Source: a virus. From it: DNA of 50,505 nucleotides. A model generated the notes under the pieces. That model did not search any database. It was not told where the DNA came from and saw only the letters and a program-made list of their open reading frames with translations. Numbering within the stretch: the first letter of the stretch is position 1; every line of letters starts with the position of its first letter. Location of the stretch: positions 1 through 50,505 of the IMG/VR virus record IMGVR_UViG_3300044640_000715; one strand, 5' to 3'. The position numbers were made by a program, and so were the translations under genes. This document shows, piece by piece, positions 30,746-41,086 of the stretch.

Positions 30746-31591
30746 TTAGAAAATATATCTGATACTCTCTAAAGGAAAATATTTACTGTATAACACTTGA
30801 AAATCATTTATAAGCTTTTGCTTAAAATGTCTTTCATATCTAATATTATCTGCTGCATACTCAGAATCTTTAGCTTCTTGAATCAGAGGTTGCCACAGAT
30901 AATAGTTGACTTCAGAGTTATTTCTTTCAGCTTGCATCTTATTGTAAGTCACAAAGATACACTCAGATTTAAATTCTAATCCTTTAAGTTGTTGAAACAA
31001 TTCTTCATAGTCTTCTAGCCAAGTAGGATAGTAAACTATAGGACTAAAATTTATGTGCACCTCCATTTTTGTTTGGAGTACAGGTATCATAGCAATCCTA
31101 TCAGCTATGCTGTCAGTATTGGGTTCTAAGATACTTGAGATCTTTTGAGGCATAAGACTTACTCTTATCCTGTGCTTTCCAGGTGTCAAGTTATACTTGA
31201 CTATTGGAAATTTAGTAGGGTATTTAGTAGCAAAAGTAGTCTTAAGCTTAGGGCTATTGTTGAAAAAATCCATCACTAACTGCCAATCATAGTGTTTATG
31301 ATGCAAAGATACATCAGTACTACAACCTATGTCTACACAATAGTAAGTGTCATCTACTTGATTTGGCACTTTAGGCCAAGGTTTAGTCTCAACCCAAGAC
31401 TGGATAGAGGACAAAATTTCATCTGTATTCTCATTAATGTAGACTTTATCATGGTTATACCTAGCCACATAACAATAAGATTTCATACACCCTCCTAAAC
31501 AGCCATAGATAAAGTTAGGAGCAATAGCATCACTGCTCCTACCATTATCTCTAGTGACTAAAGTTTTAGTCTTCTGTCTTTTGATTTGCAT
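30746..31591 (-). CDS. SPL-family radical SAM protein (spore photoproduct lyase-like)
   Basis: This 281-aa protein carries a cysteine cluster near the N-terminus, C31-x3-C35-x4-C40 in IYGCLGGCMKSYCYVARYNH, where SPL enzymes bind the 4Fe-4S cluster. Later segments match the family well: IRVSLMPQ, LEPNTDSIADRIAMIP and VHINFSPIVYYPTWLEDYEE. SPL enzymes use S-adenosylmethionine to reverse the thymine spore photoproduct. Phage homologues may repair or modify DNA in another way. The spacing of the last two cysteines (x4) differs from the CX3CX2C of characterised SPL. The gene is in the operon with the small acidic genes upstream and lies before the GroES-like gene. The family call is firm and the reaction open. 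Confidence 0.82.
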   Translation of the reverse strand: MQIKRQKTKTLVTRDNGRSSDAIAPNFIYGCLGGCMKSYCYVARYNHDKVYINENTDEILSSIQSWVETKPWPKVPNQVDDTYYCVDIGCSTDVSLHHKHYDWQLVMDFFNNSPKLKTTFATKYPTKFPIVKYNLTPGKHRIRVSLMPQKISSILEPNTDSIADRIAMIPVLQTKMEVHINFSPIVYYPTWLEDYEELFQQLKGLEFKSECIFVTYNKMQAERNNSEVNYYLWQPLIQEAKDSEYAADNIRYERHFKQKLINDFQVLYSKYFPLESIRYIF

Positions 31592-32691: not shown

Positions 32692-33329
32692 AAAGGTTTC
32701 CAAGTGTTAAAAAATTCTTCCTCTTTACTAGGAGGAAGGTCATACTCCCAAGAACCTTTTAAAAAGTCCTTGTCTTCTAAAACTACGTCAAAGACTTCTT
32801 TGATTTTGAGTTGAAACTCTCTTCTAGCATACACTGTTCTAGCAAATACATGCCTAGCTGCTGCTTTGTTTTCATCTCCAAAGTAATCTTGGATTTCTTT
32901 TTTAGTATACATCTTGCTATACTTGCCTTTTAGAAACTTTTCATAAGTATCTCCCATAGAAGGAGGAAAAGCTAATACAATCATTTGCTTTCTACTGTGA
33001 GCTTCCATTATAGCATCATAAGCATAGTCTGTTACATAATACTCTTGATGCTTTACCCAATCCATAAAGTTTTGGTATAAATCAGTTCTTACTAATTTGT
33101 CTACTAGAATAAAGATATTCTTTTGACCTTCTAGGTAAGAACCTTCTAAGAGTGTATCATGAACACCAAAAGCCAATTTAAAGATTAAGTTTAACTTAGT
33201 CTTTAGAGTAGGCCCATAGTAATTGAGAGCAGGAACTAAATACTTTAAAGTTTTATTAGAGTACAATTTCCCAATCTCAATTTCCATACCTGATTCTGCT
33301 ATTTTAGACAATACCATCCCAATCAACAA
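32682..33329 (-). CDS. Conserved-type hypothetical protein of the replication arm
   Basis: This 215-aa mixed-fold protein has no motif I recognise. It contains a hydrophobic central strand (KQMIVLAFPPS) and a C-terminal charged helix before an acidic end (PPSKEEEFFNTW). It overlaps the Cas4/RecB-like nuclease gene by 26 bases from the first ATG. Starts at 33317 or 33287 are alternatives, and the last would remove the overlap. The proximity to two nucleases suggests a role in DNA processing, but this is only association. Confidence 0.6.
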   Translation of the reverse strand: MLIGMVLSKIAESGMEIEIGKLYSNKTLKYLVPALNYYGPTLKTKLNLIFKLAFGVHDTLLEGSYLEGQKNIFILVDKLVRTDLYQNFMDWVKHQEYYVTDYAYDAIMEAHSRKQMIVLAFPPSMGDTYEKFLKGKYSKMYTKKEIQDYFGDENKAAARHVFARTVYARREFQLKIKEVFDVVLEDKDFLKGSWEYDLPPSKEEEFFNTWKPLGE

Positions 33330-34470
33330 CTAATGGTTTTAAACCTGCTTCTTGAATTTCTCTTTCTTCACTAAAACCATTCTCAGAATGATAAATGTAA
33401 AGGTCTAAGAGTTGTTCAAAGCCTTTGATTTCATATTGAATAATAGCACTTGCCATACCATCTCCATTAAACATGTCTGTTTCATGAAGGGAAATAGCTC
33501 TTCTACCAAATCTGCCTATGCCAAGAAGGCTGTCAGCAACTATAAAATTCAAAGGTTTTCCTTGATATGTAGTAGATTCTACTACAAATTGGAAAGGTTT
33601 AATAACATCAGAGCCTTCAGGGACTGCAAAATGTTTTTGTAGTGCAAGAGTATACCAAGCAGCTTGAATGTCATATCTTCTAGATTTAATACTAGATGTA
33701 AAATGATAAGTATTACCATGCATAGTTTTCAAATCTGCACCTGTAATAGAAATAATTTTACCTTCTTCAGTTCTTTCAACAAATACAATATCTAACAAAG
33801 CCTTACATTCTACTCCTCTATACTCAAAGTATATTGGAAACTGATAATACACTGTAATATCAGGTAAGTTTGAATAAATATGTCTGTCAAAGAATCCTGC
33901 AGTTCTAGGATTATTCTGCAAGGAAGAAACAACATCTGCAATAAGATTGGCTTGAGTAGTACTGATTACAGTTTTACCCAAAGCTTTAGCCATATCTATA
34001 AAATACTCAGAACCTTGTTCTGTAATATTCTTAAGTTTAGCATCAGCACCCCATCTTGGTTGCCATCCTGTTTTTTCACAAGCATCTAAAATATAAGCTC
34101 CCCAATGAGCAAGTTCTCCTACAAACTCGTAAAATGGGGTAACAGGCAGAGATTCATCTGCTGTTATAACTTCTAAGCTTTCAGCATAATCTTGCAATAC
34201 ATCTTCATATACAAGTTTCAATATCTCTATAATAGCATCAGAAGGTAATTTACTTACCTCTGAGATATAATGAGAGTTACTGAAATCCTCTACTGAAGAG
34301 GTTAATATTTGATCTACTGCAGAACCTATTAGAAAGTGTTCTGCAGAAGAATCAAACTCTTTGTTGAAAGAAGACAAATCTCCTAACAACAGTTTTAATT
34401 TAGACTGACCTAATGCATCAGATTCATAGTACTCTTGTACTTCTTCTTTTGTGGCTACAATTACTGGCAT
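33304..34470 (-). CDS. PD-(D/E)XK nuclease (RecB/Cas4/exonuclease VIII-like)
   Basis: This 388-aa protein has the core of RecB-type nucleases in its second half: KALLDIVF with D227, then GADLKTM with D246-x-K248, followed by a helix with Q269 in YDIQAAWYTLAL, matching the QxxxY motif of Cas4/RecB relatives. The N-terminal segment FLIGSAVDQIL is the usual G-S/T-A-x-(H/D) helix of this group. Such enzymes resect DNA ends for recombination or degrade host DNA. Together with the nearby Sak4-like ATPase, SSB-like protein and resolvase-like nuclease it would complete a recombination set. It overlaps the resolvase-like gene by 10 bases. The fold call is strong. Confidence 0.82.
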   Translation of the reverse strand: MPVIVATKEEVQEYYESDALGQSKLKLLLGDLSSFNKEFDSSAEHFLIGSAVDQILTSSVEDFSNSHYISEVSKLPSDAIIEILKLVYEDVLQDYAESLEVITADESLPVTPFYEFVGELAHWGAYILDACEKTGWQPRWGADAKLKNITEQGSEYFIDMAKALGKTVISTTQANLIADVVSSLQNNPRTAGFFDRHIYSNLPDITVYYQFPIYFEYRGVECKALLDIVFVERTEEGKIISITGADLKTMHGNTYHFTSSIKSRRYDIQAAWYTLALQKHFAVPEGSDVIKPFQFVVESTTYQGKPLNFIVADSLLGIGRFGRRAISLHETDMFNGDGMASAIIQYEIKGFEQLLDLYIYHSENGFSEEREIQEAGLKPLVVDWDGIV

Positions 34471-34973
34471 GTTACATACTGTTTAATGATTACTTCTTCT
34501 TTGAAATGGTCTAAAGTCATTCCTACTATAGTCTTAAATTCAGAATCTAAGTCAAACTTAAAGTCTTTCATCATAGAATACTGTAAGTTAGGACTTATAC
34601 TTCTAAATACATCAAACTGTATCATAGACATATAAACCATTTCCATGTCTGGAGTTCTTCTTGCTCCAGGCTTACCTTGCTTGTAATGAAACAATATACA
34701 AGGTCTTTTAGAAACTTCATCTTCAGGGGGAAACATTGCAGCAATAGAGGTGGACATCATAAATAATTCCTTCCCAGGATTCATGTTCTTTTGTACACCT
34801 GCTTTAATTTGCACATTAAAAGGAATATACAACAAGTCAATCTTTGCATTGTCATGTTTTTTACTTCCAAATCGGGCAGTTTCACAGAAATTAAAACCTA
34901 ATTCTCTAAAGAATTTGGCATAGTATCTTTCTGCAGTACTACCCTTTCTTTTGTTTGTGGCTCCAATTCCCAT
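34461..34973 (-). CDS. Holliday-junction-resolvase-like PD-(D/E)XK nuclease
   Basis: This 170-aa protein begins RKGSTAERYYAKFFRELGF, as archaeal-type Hjc resolvases do (basic residue, G, then E15 in the first helix). It continues with RFGSKKHDNAKIDLL, where D46 is the likely metal ligand, and VQIKAG, with Q55-x-K57 in place of the usual E-x-K. Such nucleases cut branched DNA before packaging. Gln instead of Glu occurs in some family branches. It is followed by the Cas4/RecB-like gene with a 10-base overlap, and it starts 42 bases after the five-gene ubiquitin-like block. A structure-selective role is inferred; a simple DNA endonuclease is the alternative. Confidence 0.7.
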   Translation of the reverse strand: MGIGATNKRKGSTAERYYAKFFRELGFNFCETARFGSKKHDNAKIDLLYIPFNVQIKAGVQKNMNPGKELFMMSTSIAAMFPPEDEVSKRPCILFHYKQGKPGARRTPDMEMVYMSMIQFDVFRSISPNLQYSMMKDFKFDLDSEFKTIVGMTLDHFKEEVIIKQYVTCQ

Positions 34974-35015: not shown

Positions 35016-35879
35016 CTAGTTCTGTAAATCATCAACTAATCTCCATGTGTCTCTTTCTGCTAAAATAGTAGAATTGATCACTGCAGTTTCTATATGGGTA
35101 GTTCTCTGCTGGGCTATGTAGTTTTCCATTTCTTCTCTTCTCTCTTCTCTTAGAAGTTCTTCTATATTAATAGAAGCACCTGCATCAAATAGCAAAGCTT
35201 CTTCTTCTAAAGAAAGAGTTTCAGAAATAGGGGCAATTATTACTCTCTTTTGTTCTTCAGGATAGTCCTCGTTTCCTGTATAGATAAAATTAGGTAATAC
35301 TGCTTTCATGTACATATCTAGTTGATTAATTGAACTAGTTTTCTTGACTTCAAATAGTCTTGTAAAGGTATTTCTTTCAATTTCTTGAGAGGTAACTAAT
35401 CTGACCTCTATACCTTTTTGATAACAAGACAGTAATATTTCTTTTTGAAGTCTTCTGTCTAGAGCTTTTAAATTTGGGTTAGTAAAAAAAGAAGTAGAAT
35501 AAAATAAAACGTAATTATTGTAGGAGAAGTTTTCATATCTCTCATCATGAGATACAAATTTGTTTTCTTTACTTGCTAACATAAGTAAAGGATTATACAG
35601 TGCATCATATATAGCACCTTTAACAAAATAAAGAGTATTGGAATTAACTGATATTTTCAGAGGTGTTAAAGATTCTTCTAAACCCATTTTTATATTATTC
35701 AAGGTATTGCTTTTAGGAATAGCCTCATAAAAATTAGGTTTAGAGAAATAGTGGTCTCCATCTATTGCATGACTTAAATACACTGCATAAATTGGAAGAT
35801 AAGGACAAAGATCAGGCATAGTTAAATTAAACCTGTCTAATGGTCTCCCTCCATATCTATCATAACTTGTAATTCTCAT
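35016..35879 (-). CDS. Unknown protein coupled to the E1-like gene
   Basis: This 287-aa protein is not recognised. Its start overlaps the E1-like stop (ATGA-type), so it is translated together with the ubiquitin-like block and may be a fifth member. It contains several beta-strands (NYVLFYSTSFF, GIEVRLVTSQEI, KRVIIAPISE) and a C-terminal charged helix (EELLREERREEMENYIAQQR). There is a single prominent cysteine, in SCYQKG. It could be a substrate, adaptor or regulator. The stop is TAG, followed at once by TAA. Confidence 0.65.
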   Translation of the reverse strand: MRITSYDRYGGRPLDRFNLTMPDLCPYLPIYAVYLSHAIDGDHYFSKPNFYEAIPKSNTLNNIKMGLEESLTPLKISVNSNTLYFVKGAIYDALYNPLLMLASKENKFVSHDERYENFSYNNYVLFYSTSFFTNPNLKALDRRLQKEILLSCYQKGIEVRLVTSQEIERNTFTRLFEVKKTSSINQLDMYMKAVLPNFIYTGNEDYPEEQKRVIIAPISETLSLEEEALLFDAGASINIEELLREERREEMENYIAQQRTTHIETAVINSTILAERDTWRLVDDLQN

Positions 35880-36574
35880 ATCTCACTGTAAGTGTAGTTC
35901 ATAGGAACTACAAATTCATAGTAGAAAGGGACTTCTCTGATAGTCTCTTCTGCATAAGTGTTAGCGATATGATTAGTGAAAAATGCAGTCATAATAGAAC
36001 CTATCATTGCTGCAGTATGAGAAGTTTGCTTCATAGTACATGGAGCTTCTTCTACAACGCTGTCATCAAATAAATGTTCTGTTTTATACCTATTTGCATT
36101 TTCAGGAGTTACACAAAATACTTGTAATTGCTCTAACTCTAGTCTACCATCAATAAATAAAGGAGTAACACCTTCAGGAACAATTTCCCAAGACCTTCTC
36201 CATACTTCAAATAATGCATTTCTTGCTTCCATATTGTCAAAAGCAGAAAAACAAAACCAATGAGTAGGAGTGTTTATAGTAACAGGCTCTGCGTGAGTTC
36301 TTATATCCCTATTTGTTGAAAAACTATATACCATATTAGATACAGCAGATACTTTAGATCTACCTAAATCTTTTTCAGTAAATAATTGTCCACCTAAATT
36401 GTGGTCTTCCACTAAGTCAAAGTCATAAATGTTAACTTTATATCCTATCCGAGACAGGAAAAAAGCTAACCAACTGCCTATACCACCTGCTCCACCAACA
36501 AGAGTAGTAACTCCTTCTTCTTGAGGAAACCAAGCAGCATCTTTAAATCTTGAATTTTGTAGATTCTGTGCCAT
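35876..36574 (-). CDS. ThiF/E1-like adenylyltransferase
   Basis: This 232-aa protein has the Rossmann nucleotide loop GGAGGIGSW (residues 28-34), the downstream DFDLVEDHNLGGQ where E1-family proteins have D-x5-N-x3-Q (D53, N59, Q63), IDGRLELEQ, and a candidate catalytic cysteine C179 in EEAPCTMKQTSH, matching the conserved C-T of E1/MoeB/ThiF enzymes. These enzymes adenylate the C-terminus of a ubiquitin-like protein and often form a thioester. No zinc CxxC pairs are visible. It overlaps the JAB gene by 32 bases and the unknown downstream gene by four. With a Ubl, an E2-like protein and a JAB gene upstream, it is most likely the E1 of a small conjugation system. A MoeB/ThiF sulfur-transfer role is less likely, because no MoaD/ThiS-type gene is present. 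Confidence 0.85.
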   Translation of the reverse strand: MAQNLQNSRFKDAAWFPQEEGVTTLVGGAGGIGSWLAFFLSRIGYKVNIYDFDLVEDHNLGGQLFTEKDLGRSKVSAVSNMVYSFSTNRDIRTHAEPVTINTPTHWFCFSAFDNMEARNALFEVWRRSWEIVPEGVTPLFIDGRLELEQLQVFCVTPENANRYKTEHLFDDSVVEEAPCTMKQTSHTAAMIGSIMTAFFTNHIANTYAEETIREVPFYYEFVVPMNYTYSEI

Positions 36575-37757
36575 CTTCCATGAATTTTATTACCATATTT
36601 TCTATGGTGGTTACACTTGGTTTAATAAAAGGATACATTATTACATGTTCATCTAATAAGTCAACAACTTCTCCTGAATACTGTACAAACTCTTCTGAAG
36701 TAGCCTTTGGAAAATACTTATTAAATGACTTAGCATAATTTGTAATTACACTTTTAGCTATCTCTTGAGGAGTCATAGGCACTTCTTGTAAAAGTTCTAT
36801 AATATCTTCTAAAGTATCATTGTGTTCTAGTCTTAAATTAGACACATTGAATAAGTCCATACATAAGTTTTGGATATCTTCTTCGTGTTCAATTAATCCA
36901 TATCCTTGCATAGGCGTATCCCAGTCATCAAATAAAGTCCTTTGATTATAGTTGTTTTTACTGTAGAGAGAATTTTGACTATAGTCTTGAAATTTTTTGG
37001 AGCTGTTTGGATCTGTATGGGCTCCCTTAGTCCAGGCATTTGGAGTATAGCTGGTTGGTAAATAATTATTCCTGGGAGCTACAGGTTTAGGTTTCATAAT
37101 CTCTTTTACCTGATTTGCAAAATCTTCATCAACAGTAATAGAAACTAATGGAGACTGTATATCACAATCATACATAAATAGTTTCTTACTATCAACTACA
37201 AAGTCTTGCTCTTCAATAATGTAACTATGACCCTTCACATTCATAGCTGTAAAAGGAACCTGTTTAATACTTTGTTTAGCTTCTCCAATAAAAGCAACTT
37301 TAGCAGTAAAATCCATAAAGTTGTTTACAATAAGAGAAAGATAAAAGTTATGGCTAGGTGCATTATCATTTAATTCTGCTAGGTCTGTACCTGAGAAAAA
37401 TACTGCCATAGTATTATGGCTATGGATATGCCCTAATTTCCAAGTGCATCTTTCATCAAAATCTGCATCTATAAAATCTATAAATCTTTCATCAAGATTG
37501 TACTCAGTATAGGCTTGAGAACCCATATCTAGAGGAAGTATAGTTTTAAGAGTAATGACAAAATTTTCAGGATCTTCTATATTACCCTCTGTAGTATAGA
37601 ATAGAGCTCCTGACCACTCTACTTTAGAAATTAACTTGCACAGATATTGTATCTGATTCAGCACCATTTCTGGCATTATCACTTTGACTAAGGAGGTTAG
37701 CTGCACTTTTGGTAATTGCGGCTTTGTAAATTTGATATTCGAGTTCTCTAAGGACAT
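36543..37757 (-). CDS. JAB/JAMM metalloprotease (deubiquitinase-like)
   Basis: This 404-aa protein has a complete JAMM motif: E47 in KVEWSGALFY, then H112-S113-H114, seven residues, S122-x2-D125 in HIHSHNTMAVFFSGTDLAEL. This is the zinc site of isopeptidases that remove or mature ubiquitin-like proteins. The JAB domain occupies about residues 22-170. The remaining 230 residues are not recognised; they include a proline/asparagine-rich linker (about 225-270) and a helical C-terminal part. The start at 37757 lies 134 bases inside the E2-like gene. A later start (37676) would remove the first strand of the domain, so the long overlap seems real. In its operon it would process the Ubl precursor or cleave conjugates. 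Confidence 0.88.
   Translation of the reverse strand: MSLENSNIKFTKPQLPKVQLTSLVKVIMPEMVLNQIQYLCKLISKVEWSGALFYTTEGNIEDPENFVITLKTILPLDMGSQAYTEYNLDERFIDFIDADFDERCTWKLGHIHSHNTMAVFFSGTDLAELNDNAPSHNFYLSLIVNNFMDFTAKVAFIGEAKQSIKQVPFTAMNVKGHSYIIEEQDFVVDSKKLFMYDCDIQSPLVSITVDEDFANQVKEIMKPKPVAPRNNYLPTSYTPNAWTKGAHTDPNSSKKFQDYSQNSLYSKNNYNQRTLFDDWDTPMQGYGLIEHEEDIQNLCMDLFNVSNLRLEHNDTLEDIIELLQEVPMTPQEIAKSVITNYAKSFNKYFPKATSEEFVQYSGEVVDLLDEHVIMYPFIKPSVTTIENMVIKFMEDGTESTKFKI
37624..37757 (-). other. 134-base two-frame overlap between E2-like and JAB genes
   Basis: The last 44 codons of the E2-like gene and the first 44 codons of the JAB gene share this stretch in different frames. The JAB share includes the first strand and helix of the domain with the metal-ligand glutamate region nearby, so neither end looks dispensable. 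It is the longest same-strand overlap in the window. Confidence 0.7.
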
Positions 37758-38829
37758 AATTTAAAAATTTAGGATAAACAATAAAATTGTCAAGATCATT
37801 CTCGACATTTCTTTTTTGGGGGGCATCAAGGATTCTGCTAGGGTAATATTTAGTATTACCAAACTTAGTATACTTAGAAGTAAAATTCTTTGGTCTTGCT
37901 TCTCTAGAAACATTTAAAGGCATTTCTAAGTAATTTTCATATTTATTAGGAACTCTAGTGACTAATATACTTCTACGGTCAAGATGAATAAAGTTCAGTA
38001 TTTGTTCTTTTATAAAAAGATTACTTTTTTCATTAGCTACTATTTTGTATCTACCTTCATCTACATAGAAATCTACATTTAAAGGTATTTTATGATGCAA
38101 TATCTTGTCTACTAATTTATCACCCAAAGAAGAAGAAAAAGAAAGTACTCTTTTAGACAAAGCATTATCAATATTTTCCATTCTAATATGAGGAACACCT
38201 TCTAAAGATTCCCAGTGCATCATAGTATCTACACAAAATAAATACAATTCATATCTATTTATGTCCCACTCTGTACACTCTATTTCAGCTAACATTCTAC
38301 TTACATCAGTATCATTACCAATACAAAAAGTACCTAATTTTAATGGTGCATCTACCCAATCACTTTTACTAGGTAAATGGCTGTGTAAATAACCTGCAGC
38401 TTCTTCTTTAAGAGTTAATTTACCTCTTGTACCCAAAGGTCTTAAAGGATATAACTTACTATTAGAATAAGAAAATGTATGAACTACAATAAGGTCTTTT
38501 ATAGTGTGAGATTTCCTATTAGAATTAGTAATAACTATTTCAGGATAAATTACTTTAAAGAAAGGTTCAAACAAGGTTCTATCATCTACTTTTCTAAAAC
38601 CTAAAGAAACATTTGCTTTGTATTTGTTGTAAAATAACTCTGTAATTTCTACAAACTGCTCAATACAGTCTTCTAAATCATCTTCATAAATATTAAAAGA
38701 TAAATACTTACGAAATACAAATTCAATAACAGGTCTTTGTCTATGAATCCCTACATTTTCAGCATTAAGTAAATAACGCTGTATTAGACTTGAAGGTCTG
38801 AATACAATAGTTTCATCAATACTATGCAT
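37624..38829 (-). CDS. E2/UBC-like conjugating enzyme candidate
   Basis: In this 401-aa protein residues about 88-205 read like an E2 fold: strands FFKVIYPEIVI and IVVHTFSY, LYPLRPLGT where E2 enzymes have Y-P-x-x-P-P, YLHSHLPS (H149, H151) at the HPN position, GTFCIG with C169 at the active-site G-x-I-C-L, then a tryptophan-containing helix (AEIECTEWDINRYELY). The long N- and C-terminal extensions are not recognised. E2-like proteins carry the activated modifier as a thioester to a target. The position between a Ubl gene and JAB and E1 genes is exactly that of E2 genes in Bil and related operons. The HSH could instead hint at a degenerate JAB domain, but it lacks the downstream S-x2-D. Confidence 0.62.
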   Translation of the reverse strand: MHSIDETIVFRPSSLIQRYLLNAENVGIHRQRPVIEFVFRKYLSFNIYEDDLEDCIEQFVEITELFYNKYKANVSLGFRKVDDRTLFEPFFKVIYPEIVITNSNRKSHTIKDLIVVHTFSYSNSKLYPLRPLGTRGKLTLKEEAAGYLHSHLPSKSDWVDAPLKLGTFCIGNDTDVSRMLAEIECTEWDINRYELYLFCVDTMMHWESLEGVPHIRMENIDNALSKRVLSFSSSLGDKLVDKILHHKIPLNVDFYVDEGRYKIVANEKSNLFIKEQILNFIHLDRRSILVTRVPNKYENYLEMPLNVSREARPKNFTSKYTKFGNTKYYPSRILDAPQKRNVENDLDNFIVYPKFLNYVLRELEYQIYKAAITKSAANLLSQSDNARNGAESDTISVQVNF

Positions 38830-38843
38830 AATTTAAAAATTAA

Positions 38844-38871
38844 AAAGGGCTTGGTATTTCACAAGCCCTTT
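38844..38871 (-). terminator. Intrinsic terminator between Ubl gene and enzyme genes
   Basis: AAAGGGCTTG and CAAGCCCTTT form a perfect 10-bp stem with an 8-base loop. On the minus strand it is followed by TTAATTTTT. It lies just after the Ubl-like gene stop and 15 bases before the E2-like start, so it probably lowers transcription of the downstream enzyme genes relative to the Ubl. Confidence 0.85.
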
Positions 38872-38879
38872 GGTTAATA

Positions 38880-39485
38880 TTAATAACCTAATTCTCTAGC
38901 TTCTCTAGCCAAATCATCTTCTTCTGTACTAGTCTTAGGAAGATAACCTTTAGCTTCTTTACCTAATTTCTTCAAAGCTTTGTCAGCTTTGTCAAAATTA
39001 TCATAGTTGTATAAAGGAGCAATAGTGTTTCTAGCTTGAAGTACACGAGTAACATCATCAGCTTCTTCTACAGCTACAGATTTAACTTCAGCTCTAGCTT
39101 GTTGCATTTCTGCTGCAATGATGCTGTTGTATAAATCTTCTAATACAGAAGTAGCTAACTGAGTCATGTTTCTGCCTTCAACAACAAAACAACCTTTCTT
39201 ATCAGGATTTTGTTTAGTAAACTCTTTGATAGCTTCAAAAAGAATTTTTCTATCAGAACCTGATTTAGTTTGTTTAGGTCTCAAGAATAATCTGAAGTCA
39301 CTTGAAGGCAATACTGCTAAATCATTAACAAGGTCTGTCTTGTTAACATTCTCTGCTGCCATTAAAGAAGACAAGTCAAAACCTGCATTTCTTACTAAAG
39401 GTTGCAATTCTCCCCAAGTTGTTACATCAGTGCTAATTTTCTGTGTGTTACCACCTCTAGTGGCATAAATAGTGATTTCTCTCAT
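38880..39485 (-). CDS. Ubiquitin-like beta-grasp protein with helical C-terminal extension
   Basis: Residues 1-71 of this 201-aa protein have beta-grasp character like PRTRC protein C and other prokaryotic ubiquitin-like proteins: strand REITIYATRGG, strand QKISTDV, the TTWGELQPLVRNAG helix after a V-T-T-W-G-E turn, VNKTDLVNDLAVLPSSD, and final strand FRLFLRPK. The remaining 130 residues are mostly helical and charged, ending EARELGY. There is no C-terminal Gly-Gly. If it is a modifier it would need cleavage, and G76 in QTKSG just after the domain is a possible new end. Alternatively it is a scaffold or is conjugated in another way. It is followed by a strong terminator and then E2-like, JAB and E1-like genes. 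Confidence 0.65.
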   Translation of the reverse strand: MREITIYATRGGNTQKISTDVTTWGELQPLVRNAGFDLSSLMAAENVNKTDLVNDLAVLPSSDFRLFLRPKQTKSGSDRKILFEAIKEFTKQNPDKKGCFVVEGRNMTQLATSVLEDLYNSIIAAEMQQARAEVKSVAVEEADDVTRVLQARNTIAPLYNYDNFDKADKALKKLGKEAKGYLPKTSTEEDDLAREARELGY

Positions 39486-39503: not shown

Positions 39504-40097
39504 TTACCAGTTAATTATTTTTTTTCTAAGTTTCTTTAATATGACATTAATATGGTCTAAGTTGACATATTTGCCTTTAAAGATGTAATTGTAATCTACA
39601 CTTGTTGGGATACCTTGGATGCTGTCATCTGTGTATCTTAGCACATTAAAAATAGATCTTCCAGGTAGATTAGCTGTAAATCTTTGTGCTTCTGTTGTGG
39701 GCATAACCCAAATGCAAGAATTTGTTTTTGCAATAAAATAGATAACCTTTTTAATGAAGGGTTCCCAATGTTCTGTATGGTCTGTGTCTGCACCTTGTGT
39801 TAAGGAAATGGGTAGCCTAAATACGCCCTCTATATCTTTAGGGGCTAAGTCTAATTGCTTAAATCTACCTACAATCACTACTCTGATACTATACACAGGC
39901 ATAGAAAAAACCCTGAAGACTTCATCAGCTTCAGGGTAATATTTCTCTTGGGGTAATACTTCATTCTTAAAGTAAAGAAAAGCATCTGTATTAAATTCAT
40001 TCATAAGAGGTTTCCATGAATGATGAATATGTTTAAAGTTCACCTCGTAAAATCTTTTAAAAATTGATAAAAATATTGCTTGTCTTTTGCTATACAA
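39504..40097 (-). CDS. Uracil-DNA-glycosylase-fold protein, catalytic motifs apparently lost
   Basis: The 197-aa sequence follows the family 1 UDG plan: an early W-K-P-L (HHSWKPLM), the strand IRVVIVG at residues 71-77 where UDG has VVILGQDPYH, a GVFRLPIS segment matching GLAFSV, then HTEHWEPFIKKVIYFI and SCIWVMPTTEAQ, matching the GWE-x-FT and LWG-x-x-A-Q region. But the catalytic GQDPYH is replaced by GRFKQLDL, and the HPSPLS loop is not evident. It is therefore probably an inactive glycosylase. crAss-like phages are known to carry UDG-family genes in the replication block, and the poxvirus D4 UDG is a polymerase processivity subunit. A similar structural role is possible. It overlaps the primase gene by 58 bases. 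Confidence 0.68.
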   Translation of the reverse strand: MYSKRQAIFLSIFKRFYEVNFKHIHHSWKPLMNEFNTDAFLYFKNEVLPQEKYYPEADEVFRVFSMPVYSIRVVIVGRFKQLDLAPKDIEGVFRLPISLTQGADTDHTEHWEPFIKKVIYFIAKTNSCIWVMPTTEAQRFTANLPGRSIFNVLRYTDDSIQGIPTSVDYNYIFKGKYVNLDHINVILKKLRKKIINW

Positions 40098-41086
40098 TCA
40101 GAAGGGTCTTTAATTCCCACTTCTAATCCTCTTTCAGGAAGCCATAAATTCTTTGCTTTACATGGAACAATGTTATTGATATGTAATTTGATCTTTTCAG
40201 AAGCTGTAATACCAGCCTGGTCATTATCAAACCAGACAATGATGTTTTCAAAATGATTAACCAATCTGTTTATGATAGTATCATTTGGTATCATACCTTC
40301 ATTCTGAAACCATATTACATTCTTACCACTGTTCTTCAGCACTCTATAATCCTTATAAGCCTTTGTAATTATTAATTCTTTACCATACGTCAACAATGAA
40401 GTAATTCCACCTATATCATTCTTTGTACAATTAGTAAGGAATCTTTGTTTACCTGTTCTCATAGGGAAATAAAGCTTTTTTCTTGCTTCAGGAAAATCAT
40501 TATAACTATATGCCAAATCATGGCAATCAGATATAATGTGACCTGCTCTTGTATTTAAAGCATAAAACTTTTTGACAGGAAAAACTTTATCTTCTATCAA
40601 ATCCTTCTTCTTAATGTCATACTGCTTCCAATAATCTCTGTCAGCAATACTAAAAGGTCTACTTTCAATTAGGATTTTGACTTTGGGTTTAGCCTCTTTA
40701 ACTATCCCTGTATTATTTACTATAGGTCTTGATATTTCTTTCCCTTTAATTAAAGAGTTATAGATAAATTCAAGGGTCAAATAGAAATTAGGAAGATTAA
40801 AATAAACTGTTACCATATCAAAACAATCCATATTGGAAAGCTTAATACCTTTAACAACATTAGAATTAGCAAAATCTATGAATCTAAGTTTTTCCATGTG
40901 GTATTCAAACCAACACCCTGGAGTCCTATCCTTTCTTAAAGGAGAGTGAACAAGGTCAAATTCAACAGGAATAAATCCAAAAACTAATTTGAATATCTCT
41001 TCTTGTGAAACTAATTGTAAGATGCTTTCTTTACTAATAAAACCTCTTCTATCTAAGTTATCTGTATTAAATTGATATGGGCTCAT
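40040..41086 (-). CDS. DnaG-like DNA primase with TOPRIM domain
   Basis: This 348-aa protein has the TOPRIM core at residues about 236-300: ELIITKAYKDYRVL (normally the catalytic glutamate strand), WFQNEGM, then IIVWFDNDQAG with D287 and D289. The N-terminal part HSPLRKDRTPGCWFEYH resembles the S-P-x-R-x-D-x-x-P-S segment of DnaG-type zinc-binding domains, but the zinc cysteines are missing. The first TOPRIM acidic residue is replaced by lysine (K242), a variant I have seen in phages of Bacteroidetes. It makes RNA primers for replication. It is next to the SSB-like gene and upstream of the UDG-like gene. The family call is good, and activity despite the changes is likely but not shown. Confidence 0.78.
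   Translation of the reverse strand: MSPYQFNTDNLDRRGFISKESILQLVSQEEIFKLVFGFIPVEFDLVHSPLRKDRTPGCWFEYHMEKLRFIDFANSNVVKGIKLSNMDCFDMVTVYFNLPNFYLTLEFIYNSLIKGKEISRPIVNNTGIVKEAKPKVKILIESRPFSIADRDYWKQYDIKKKDLIEDKVFPVKKFYALNTRAGHIISDCHDLAYSYNDFPEARKKLYFPMRTGKQRFLTNCTKNDIGGITSLLTYGKELIITKAYKDYRVLKNSGKNVIWFQNEGMIPNDTIINRLVNHFENIIVWFDNDQAGITASEKIKLHINNIVPCKAKNLWLPERGLEVGIKDPSDCIAKDKQYFYQFLKDFTR

Follow-up and report, generated by a model that had tools for sequence, protein, structure and literature searches.

A conserved, predicted ubiquitin-like conjugation cassette in an exchangeable slot of the replication region of crAss-like phages

Bacterial Bil systems interfere with phage assembly. Complete operons for the conjugation of ubiquitin-like proteins (Ubl) are known from such defence systems and from plasmids that carry PRTRC modules, and if lytic phages possess a conserved operon of this kind, the chemistry would also be in viral use. 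In Bil, BilA contains two tandem Ubl domains, the E2 enzyme BilB carries a CEHH motif (Glu, His and His following the Cys) and BilD combines an inactive and an active adenylation domain with a Cys domain (PMC11354881). Lambda-type phages encode a Ubl-JAB pair, TAPI/TAPK, in which the Ubl has a conserved Gly (PMC1779556). The locus analysed here lies in the IMG/VR record IMGVR_UViG_3300044640_000715, a 50.5-kb viral record (50,505 nucleotides, the window) that is a fragment of a genome, and comprises genes for a Ubl precursor, a probable E2 conjugating enzyme, a JAB metalloprotease, an E1-like adenylating enzyme and a fifth, coupled protein. A preliminary description of the window had proposed a phage-borne Ubl-E2-JAB-E1 cassette, and this proposal is supported by conservation, by synteny, by profile matches for E1 and JAB and by predicted structures, firmly for the Ubl and moderately for the E2. 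The five open reading frames (ORFs), tightly packed with overlaps on the minus strand from 39485 to 35016, were found exactly where they had been placed (Table 1).

A search with the E1 retrieved 78 phage records, nearly all crAss-like, and the same five genes in the same order were present in crAss001 (gp79-gp75), DAC15, bajarodcaudo virus, Dulem virus 41 and Flavobacterium phage Fpv1, with the cassette corresponding to gp75-gp79 of crAss001, gp87-gp91 of DAC15 and the gp52-gp58 region of Fpv1. The gene order is shared by more than 100 metagenomic loci. Scanning of viral contigs yielded 205 relatives, of which 80 loci were kept for the analysis of gene order. Wherever the contig was long enough, these loci retained the strand and order Ubl-E2-JAB-E1, the exceptions being rare detection losses at contig ends or in intron-split genes; the survey of relatives proposed in the preliminary description thus found the block kept as a unit. 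All five genes were under purifying selection, with median ratios of nonsynonymous to synonymous substitution rates of 0.15 for E1, 0.24 for JAB, 0.38 for E2, 0.40 for the fifth gene and 0.42 for the Ubl. Recurrence of this gene set and order in essentially every long-enough relative, with purifying selection on each gene, goes beyond chance. Mean identities were 63% for E1, 59% for the Ubl core, 56% for the primase encoded next to the cassette, 33% for E2 and 31% for the fifth protein, and the fast divergence of the last two beside a conserved Ubl core and E1 fits an E2 and a fifth protein that would face the substrate.

The crAss major capsid protein was detected in all 23 relatives of the window tested (up to about 100 kb), which supports assignment of the window to a crAss-like phage, as judged from its relatives; 15/15 cassette-bearing IMG/VR genomes carry it, as do crAss001 and Fpv1. 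These phages rank among the most numerous viruses in the human gut, are common in gut and aquatic settings and are rich in genes to which no function has been assigned. A search for bacterial copies returned cassette genes only in two contigs of Spirochaetia-labelled metagenome-assembled genomes (L088 and L089), which probably stem from phages and were binned with a bacterium. Single genes had been annotated before, namely crAss001 gp76 as ThiF and gp77 as a metalloprotease, an "E1 enzyme family" protein in bajarodcaudo virus and a "thiamine biosynthesis protein" so named by depositors. No description of the cassette as a system in Crassvirales was found in the open literature, subscription papers and preprints lying largely outside the search, in agreement with the earlier remark that none was known.

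The AlphaFold2 model of the Ubl, with a predicted local distance difference test (pLDDT) score of about 96 over the core, contains strands at residues 2-8 and 13-19, a helix at 24-33 and strands at 41-45 and 64-70. Foldseek matched it with probability 1.00 to ubiquitin (template modelling (TM) score of 0.72 to 2fcm), SUMO, NEDD8 and ISG15, and the model firmly identifies the protein as a ubiquitin-like beta-grasp, as first proposed, and not as an unrelated fold. Searches of Pfam, NCBIfam and PDB sequences (60 members) matched no family. At the end of the beta-grasp, Gly76 was invariant (64/64 non-redundant sequences), and Lys74 and Ser75 were kept in 62 and 61 of the 64, respectively. Naturally short Ubls from four lineages end in KSG-K, KSG-K, KSG-I and KSG-NEKKH, and in the remaining lineages a tail continues past Gly76. 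Sister phages devoid of the cassette carry, after the primase, a separate small gene homologous to the first part of this tail. The 20 stand-alone tail proteins all aligned from position 79-80 of the Ubl hidden Markov model, just past Gly76, the alignment beginning in 16 cases at residue 1-3 of the stand-alone protein; the reverse search with a profile of the stand-alone protein matched 61 Ubl proteins. In the crAss001 fusion (KSG-A-MSRAEAYNAIK), the tail begins in register with the first residue of the stand-alone L167 protein (MKRNDLYKFIK). Because short Ubls end near Gly76 and stand-alone tail genes start almost there, Gly76 is the predicted site of JAB cleavage, and the boundary of the tail domain would coincide with the cut. 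Ubiquitin itself is made in part as an N-terminal fusion to ribosomal proteins, with the boundary at its mature Gly76. The crAss Ubl likewise forms the N-terminal part of a fusion, with its boundary at Gly76 and with a partner that is otherwise made on its own; here, this is a small phage protein to which no function is assigned, and the cleavage is predicted.

The JAB protein matched Prok-JAB with an E-value of 0.006 as a protein and of 3.9e-5 in a genome search, and the PADLOC JAB model at 3.4e-4. The complete JAMM signature read from the sequence beforehand, E47...H112-S-H114-x7-S122-x2-D125, was borne out, with His112, His114, Ser122 and Asp125 present in 69/69 non-redundant relatives and Glu47 in 68. 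The 5' end of the JAB gene overlaps the 3' end of the E2 gene in a different frame. This overlap is unusually long and is conserved across very divergent phages; it exceeded 4 nt in 76/83 loci and reached 287 nt, and its relative frame (+1) never varied. Programmed frameshifting was considered and set aside, as an inherited overlap accounts for the constant frame. Inserts split the JAB gene in L003 (5716-8008), L121, L183, L185 and L193; in Fpv1 the insert is an endonuclease gene on the opposite strand, near the HSH codons, the close relatives L030 and L031 being intact.

The E2 was matched to no family in Pfam, NCBIfam and PDB-sequence searches (63 members). Its AlphaFold2 model (pLDDT 88.3, predicted TM score 0.82) presents in order a helix, a four-stranded meander, the HSH motif, the Cys and further helices. 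None of its Foldseek matches in the PDB was significant (best E-value 0.09, TM score at most about 0.4), but they were enriched in UEV/RWD proteins: 9 of the 50 listed hits were Tsg101 UEV, Uev1a, Mms2, PfUev1a and CENP-O RWD chains. The model moderately supports a conjugating enzyme with the element order of ubiquitin-conjugating (UBC) enzymes, and we grade this assignment as probable, and that of the Ubl as firm, because sequence searches were empty for both and the structural matches of the E2 are not significant, whereas the Ubl matched with probability 1.00. Among 68 relatives, His151 and Ser150 were invariant, His149 was kept in 57 (Gln in 9) and the candidate catalytic Cys169, a median of 17 residues past His151, was present in all. 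The HSH and FC elements of the E2-like pattern proposed initially were therefore retained; the YP-x-x-P element, carried by a single one of the 68 relatives, was discarded as a chance match.

The E1 matched PF00899 (E-value 3.8e-15) and PHROG 15670 (1.5e-85). In the non-redundant set, Asp53, Lys74, Asp113 and Cys179 were each conserved in 62/62 sequences and Arg9 in 61, and the ThiF/E1 assignment with Cys179 as candidate catalytic residue was upheld. The E1s of Steigviridae (L004 and L005) carry an N-terminal extension of variable length, about 150 residues in crAss001, that is lacking in the E1 of the window. A related, solitary ThiF-like gene of Xanthomonas and Erwinia jumbo phages (L006, 7947-8630) was rejected as a counterpart, with no adjoining Ubl, E2 or JAB gene and a context near topoisomerase genes. 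The ThiF-like E1 and the depositors' thiamine label would agree with a sulfur-carrier pathway of the ThiS/ThiF or Urm1 kind, in which a tRNA, a cofactor or a peptide would receive its sulfur from the Ubl. Against it, the E1 scored 54.3 bits with NCBIfam ThiF, for which the equivalog cut-off is 159, and fell far below all ThiF equivalog cut-offs; the Ubl fold matched ubiquitin and SUMO first; conjugation better accounts for the presence of a JAB and a UBC-like protein in the block; and no thiamine or tRNA-thiolation gene was noticed among the ORFs read. We regard a sulfur carrier as the least probable of the readings weighed here.

The fifth protein evolves fast and has no known domain; its only PDB match, to 57 residues of the substrate-binding protein 2hpg (E-value 9.5e-5), was judged unreliable. 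That this gene is coupled to the cassette, as first suggested, was confirmed by the overlap of its start with the E1 stop and by its co-occurrence with E1: in the primase-anchored set described below it never occurred without E1, and a coupled ORF almost always followed E1.

The genes flanking the cassette, for a primase, a uracil-DNA glycosylase (UDG), a RusA-like nuclease and an exonuclease VIII-like protein, corroborate the earlier placement of the cassette in the replication arm. The UDG-like gene lies upstream of the cassette in the window and downstream of it in Steigviridae. Elsewhere in the window, the product of 30746-31591 begins with C-x-G-x-C-x-x-x-Y-C-Y and resembles, by eye, a radical SAM spore photoproduct lyase-like enzyme.

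Table 1 Positions of the cassette genes, their predicted functional sites and the neighbouring genes in the window.
Feature	Coordinates	Strand	Remarks
DNA primase, upstream slot border	40040..41086	-	PHROG 12622, E 4e-90
Uracil-DNA glycosylase-like gene	39504..40097	-	NCBIfam UDG, E 1.6e-7
Ubl precursor	38880..39485	-	201 aa; beta-grasp residues 1-76, helical tail 77-201; PHROG 15560
Lys74-Ser75-Gly76, predicted mature C terminus and JAB cleavage site	39258..39266	-	Conservation, short lineages
Ubl precursor C-terminal tail	38883..39257	-	First domain homologous to stand-alone protein of rIIAB-type sister phages
Probable E2 conjugating enzyme	37624..38829	-	401 aa; AlphaFold2 model, weak Foldseek; PHROG 15310
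E2 H149-S-H151 motif	38377..38385	-	Conserved among 68 relatives
E2 candidate catalytic Cys169	38323..38325	-	68/68
E2 3' end / JAB 5' end overlap, different frames	37624..37757	-	134 nt
JAB/JAMM metalloprotease	36543..37757	-	404 aa; Prok-JAB, PADLOC JAB, HHalign to PRTRC protein A
JAMM motif H112-S-H114-x7-S122-x2-D125	37383..37424	-	Glu47 partner at 37617-37619
E1-like adenylating enzyme, ThiF fold	35876..36574	-	232 aa, single domain; PF00899, PHROG 15670
E1 candidate catalytic Cys179	36038..36040	-	62/62
Fifth gene	35016..35879	-	287 aa; start overlaps E1 stop; PHROG 15446, E 3.4e-7
RusA/PDDEXK-type nuclease, downstream border	34461..34973	-	PHROG 15993; RusA-like PHROG 244, E 6e-5
Exonuclease VIII-like	33304..34470	-	PHROG 412, E 6e-26

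The position between primase and UDG/exonuclease is an exchangeable slot, a feature that is new in this analysis. A scan anchored on the primase scored the slot in 167 loci, with the types of L190, L115, L182, L184 and L109 assigned by inspection and a primase alignment mixing all lineages being too divergent for scanning. The slot held the Ubl cassette in 136 loci, rIIA/rIIB in 19, an ATP-grasp/amidoligase set in 9 and a MoxR-VWA-like module in 1, was empty in 2, and contained two modules in none. The phage cr116_1 has rIIA and rIIB at this position, and in phi14:2 the genes from primase to UDG encode GGACT, ATP-grasp, COOH-NH2 ligase, GATase and amidoligase proteins. The slot of L190 (10900-17418) encodes a DUF2201 metallopeptidase/VWA protein and a probable MoxR-like AAA ATPase, the latter assigned by reading and not by Pfam, with two homing-endonuclease-like insertions, and in the empty slots of L182 and L184 the primase and the stand-alone tail protein are directly followed by UDG. 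The rule that rIIAB replaces the cassette was weak at first (1 case in 34 genomes) and held after primase-anchored sampling. One locus holds one cassette, so exclusivity within the slot is partly built in, and the informative parts are therefore the repeated exchange and the genome-wide absence of the alternatives: no rII or COOH-NH2 ligase gene was found outside the slot in 26 genomes that carry the cassette. On a 79-row primase tree, built by a quick method with no bootstrap and with several long branches, the slot states required 15 changes, for instance at a Ubl locus within an rII clade, and well-supported branches forced five changes for Ubl, three for rII and two for the amidoligase set. 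The amidoligase/ATP-grasp sets and the homologues of T4 rIIA/rIIB thus share the slot of the Ubl cassette in sister crAss-like phages, although their proteins and chemistry are unrelated to it. In T4, rIIAB counters RexAB exclusion.

The exchange of modules also bears on whether the same conjugation machinery might act on the replication or assembly proteins of the phage itself, as a replisome switch or in virion maturation. The cassette does lie within a replication operon running from primase to recombination nucleases, and the conservation of its E1 and Ubl core is close to that of the primase; nonetheless, close relatives with the same replication genes are devoid of the cassette, which has repeatedly been swapped for unrelated modules, as would not be expected of a core regulator, and the main texts of the crAss001 virion atlas and genome paper make no mention of gp75-gp79. 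We consider targets among the phage's own proteins rather unlikely. Sequence cannot decide among the functions listed in the preliminary description (modification of the phage's own or of host proteins, countering of Bil-type defence, damage to competing phages), and it is the exchange within the slot that appears to favour host takeover or counter-defence.

On balance, we lean towards reading the cassette as a self-contained system of ubiquitin-like conjugation and deconjugation that operates in the replicative phase, with host takeover or counter-defence as its most likely role because the slot is common to rIIAB and the peptide-ligation set. We infer a pathway in which JAB would first cleave the precursor behind Gly76, which would yield two products, the mature modifier and the detached tail protein. 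E1 would then adenylate Gly76 and probably hold the Ubl as a thioester on Cys179, from which it would pass to Cys169 of the E2. The E2 would attach it to target proteins, with the fifth protein as a likely specificity factor or adaptor, and JAB could later remove it from these targets. In crAss001, replication genes belong to the middle class and come on at 10-30 min, structural genes follow at 30-60 min and host transcription is shut down meanwhile (PMC8375218); from its position inside the replication operon, the cassette would be expressed with the replication genes in the middle phase. More tentatively, and as a possibility that we hold with less conviction, the pathway may be a virus-encoded one that tags host proteins in the replicative phase with a modifier born fused to a phage protein, the slot being a dedicated counter-host locus and its modules interchangeable answers to defence.

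Several points weigh against this conjugation system and its proposed role. The E1 has NxGGQ (Gly/Ser/Ala-Gly) where PRTRC ThiF has an Arg after the conserved Asn (NxGRQ), which would make its adenylation site not fully standard. The best match of the E2 model remains at the E-value and TM score given above, and both Ubl and E2 are without any Pfam family and without profile similarity to PRTRC C or B. The timing in crAss001 is known per gene class and not for the cassette genes individually, and a common slot is no proof of a common purpose. Five crAss-like phage genes can now be put to the test as one pathway, with its candidate catalytic residues named, in phages that can be cultured, and the exchange in the slot offers a direct route to asking what rIIAB and the peptide-ligation sets do in crAss-like phages and would also flag new counter-defence modules.

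The preliminary description had compared the cassette with Bil and PRTRC. The likeness to bilABCD holds for the gene order Ubl-E2-JAB-E1 and for the predicted need of the Ubl for processing by JAB, and fails for the proteins themselves: the phage Ubl consists of one beta-grasp followed by helices and not of two Ubl domains; its E2 has a conserved His before Cys169 and none after it in 68 sequences, and hence no CEHH; and its E1 is a single domain of 232 residues, in contrast to the pseudodimer with a Cys domain of BilD, whose PADLOC model it matched at an E-value of only 8.6e-4, below generic E1-E2 models. The cassette is, moreover, carried by a phage, whereas Bil acts against phages. Identical gene order might suggest a Bil-like weapon or immunity device that tags virion proteins of competing phages, yet no Bil-level match was found beyond generic E1 and JAB signals, the single Ubl, single-domain E1 and different E2 motif depart from the described Bil features (PMC11354881) and a virulent phage would have to spare its own particles, which makes this reading improbable. 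We view as still less probable a decoy or antagonist of host Bil-type systems, in which JAB would strip host Ubl and the phage Ubl compete for the host E1. A predicted active JAB could act on foreign conjugates, and phages often copy parts of defence systems, but four enzymes and carriers that have all kept their active sites intact and evolve together exceed what a decoy needs.

PRTRC modules of plasmids and integrative and conjugative elements have a gene order (Ubl C, F, E2 B, JAB A, ThiF) that is near-identical to that of the cassette. The phage E1 is homologous to PRTRC ThiF (HHalign probability 99.1, E-value 1e-18) and the JAB to protein A over the JAMM region (probability 93-94, E-value about 1e-7), and a C-terminal Lys-(Ser)-Gly motif is conserved in both Ubls, PRTRC C ending in GAKG or GTKG. 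With 30.6 bits against TIGR03736, for which the cut-off is 144.75, the phage E1 is therefore kin to PRTRC ThiF and not a member of that family. The likeness does not extend further. HHalign gave probabilities below 1 for Ubl against PRTRC C and for E2 against PRTRC B, whole or core-trimmed and in local or global mode, with PRTRC profiles that are shallow (5 sequences), and whole-system kinship is therefore not claimed; nor did the fifth protein match the profiles of PRTRC E or F. Unlike PRTRC, the cassette has no E, F or ParB partners and adjoins primase, UDG and nuclease genes, its JAB carries a long C-terminal extension, its Ubl is fused to a tail protein and the His of its E2 precedes the Cys. 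The lambda-type TAPI/TAPK pair resembles it in that a phage encodes both a JAB and a Ubl whose Gly is conserved, but belongs to tail assembly and has neither E1 nor E2. Judged by its sequences, the crAss cassette thus appears to resemble Bil and PRTRC in its workings and is assigned to neither.

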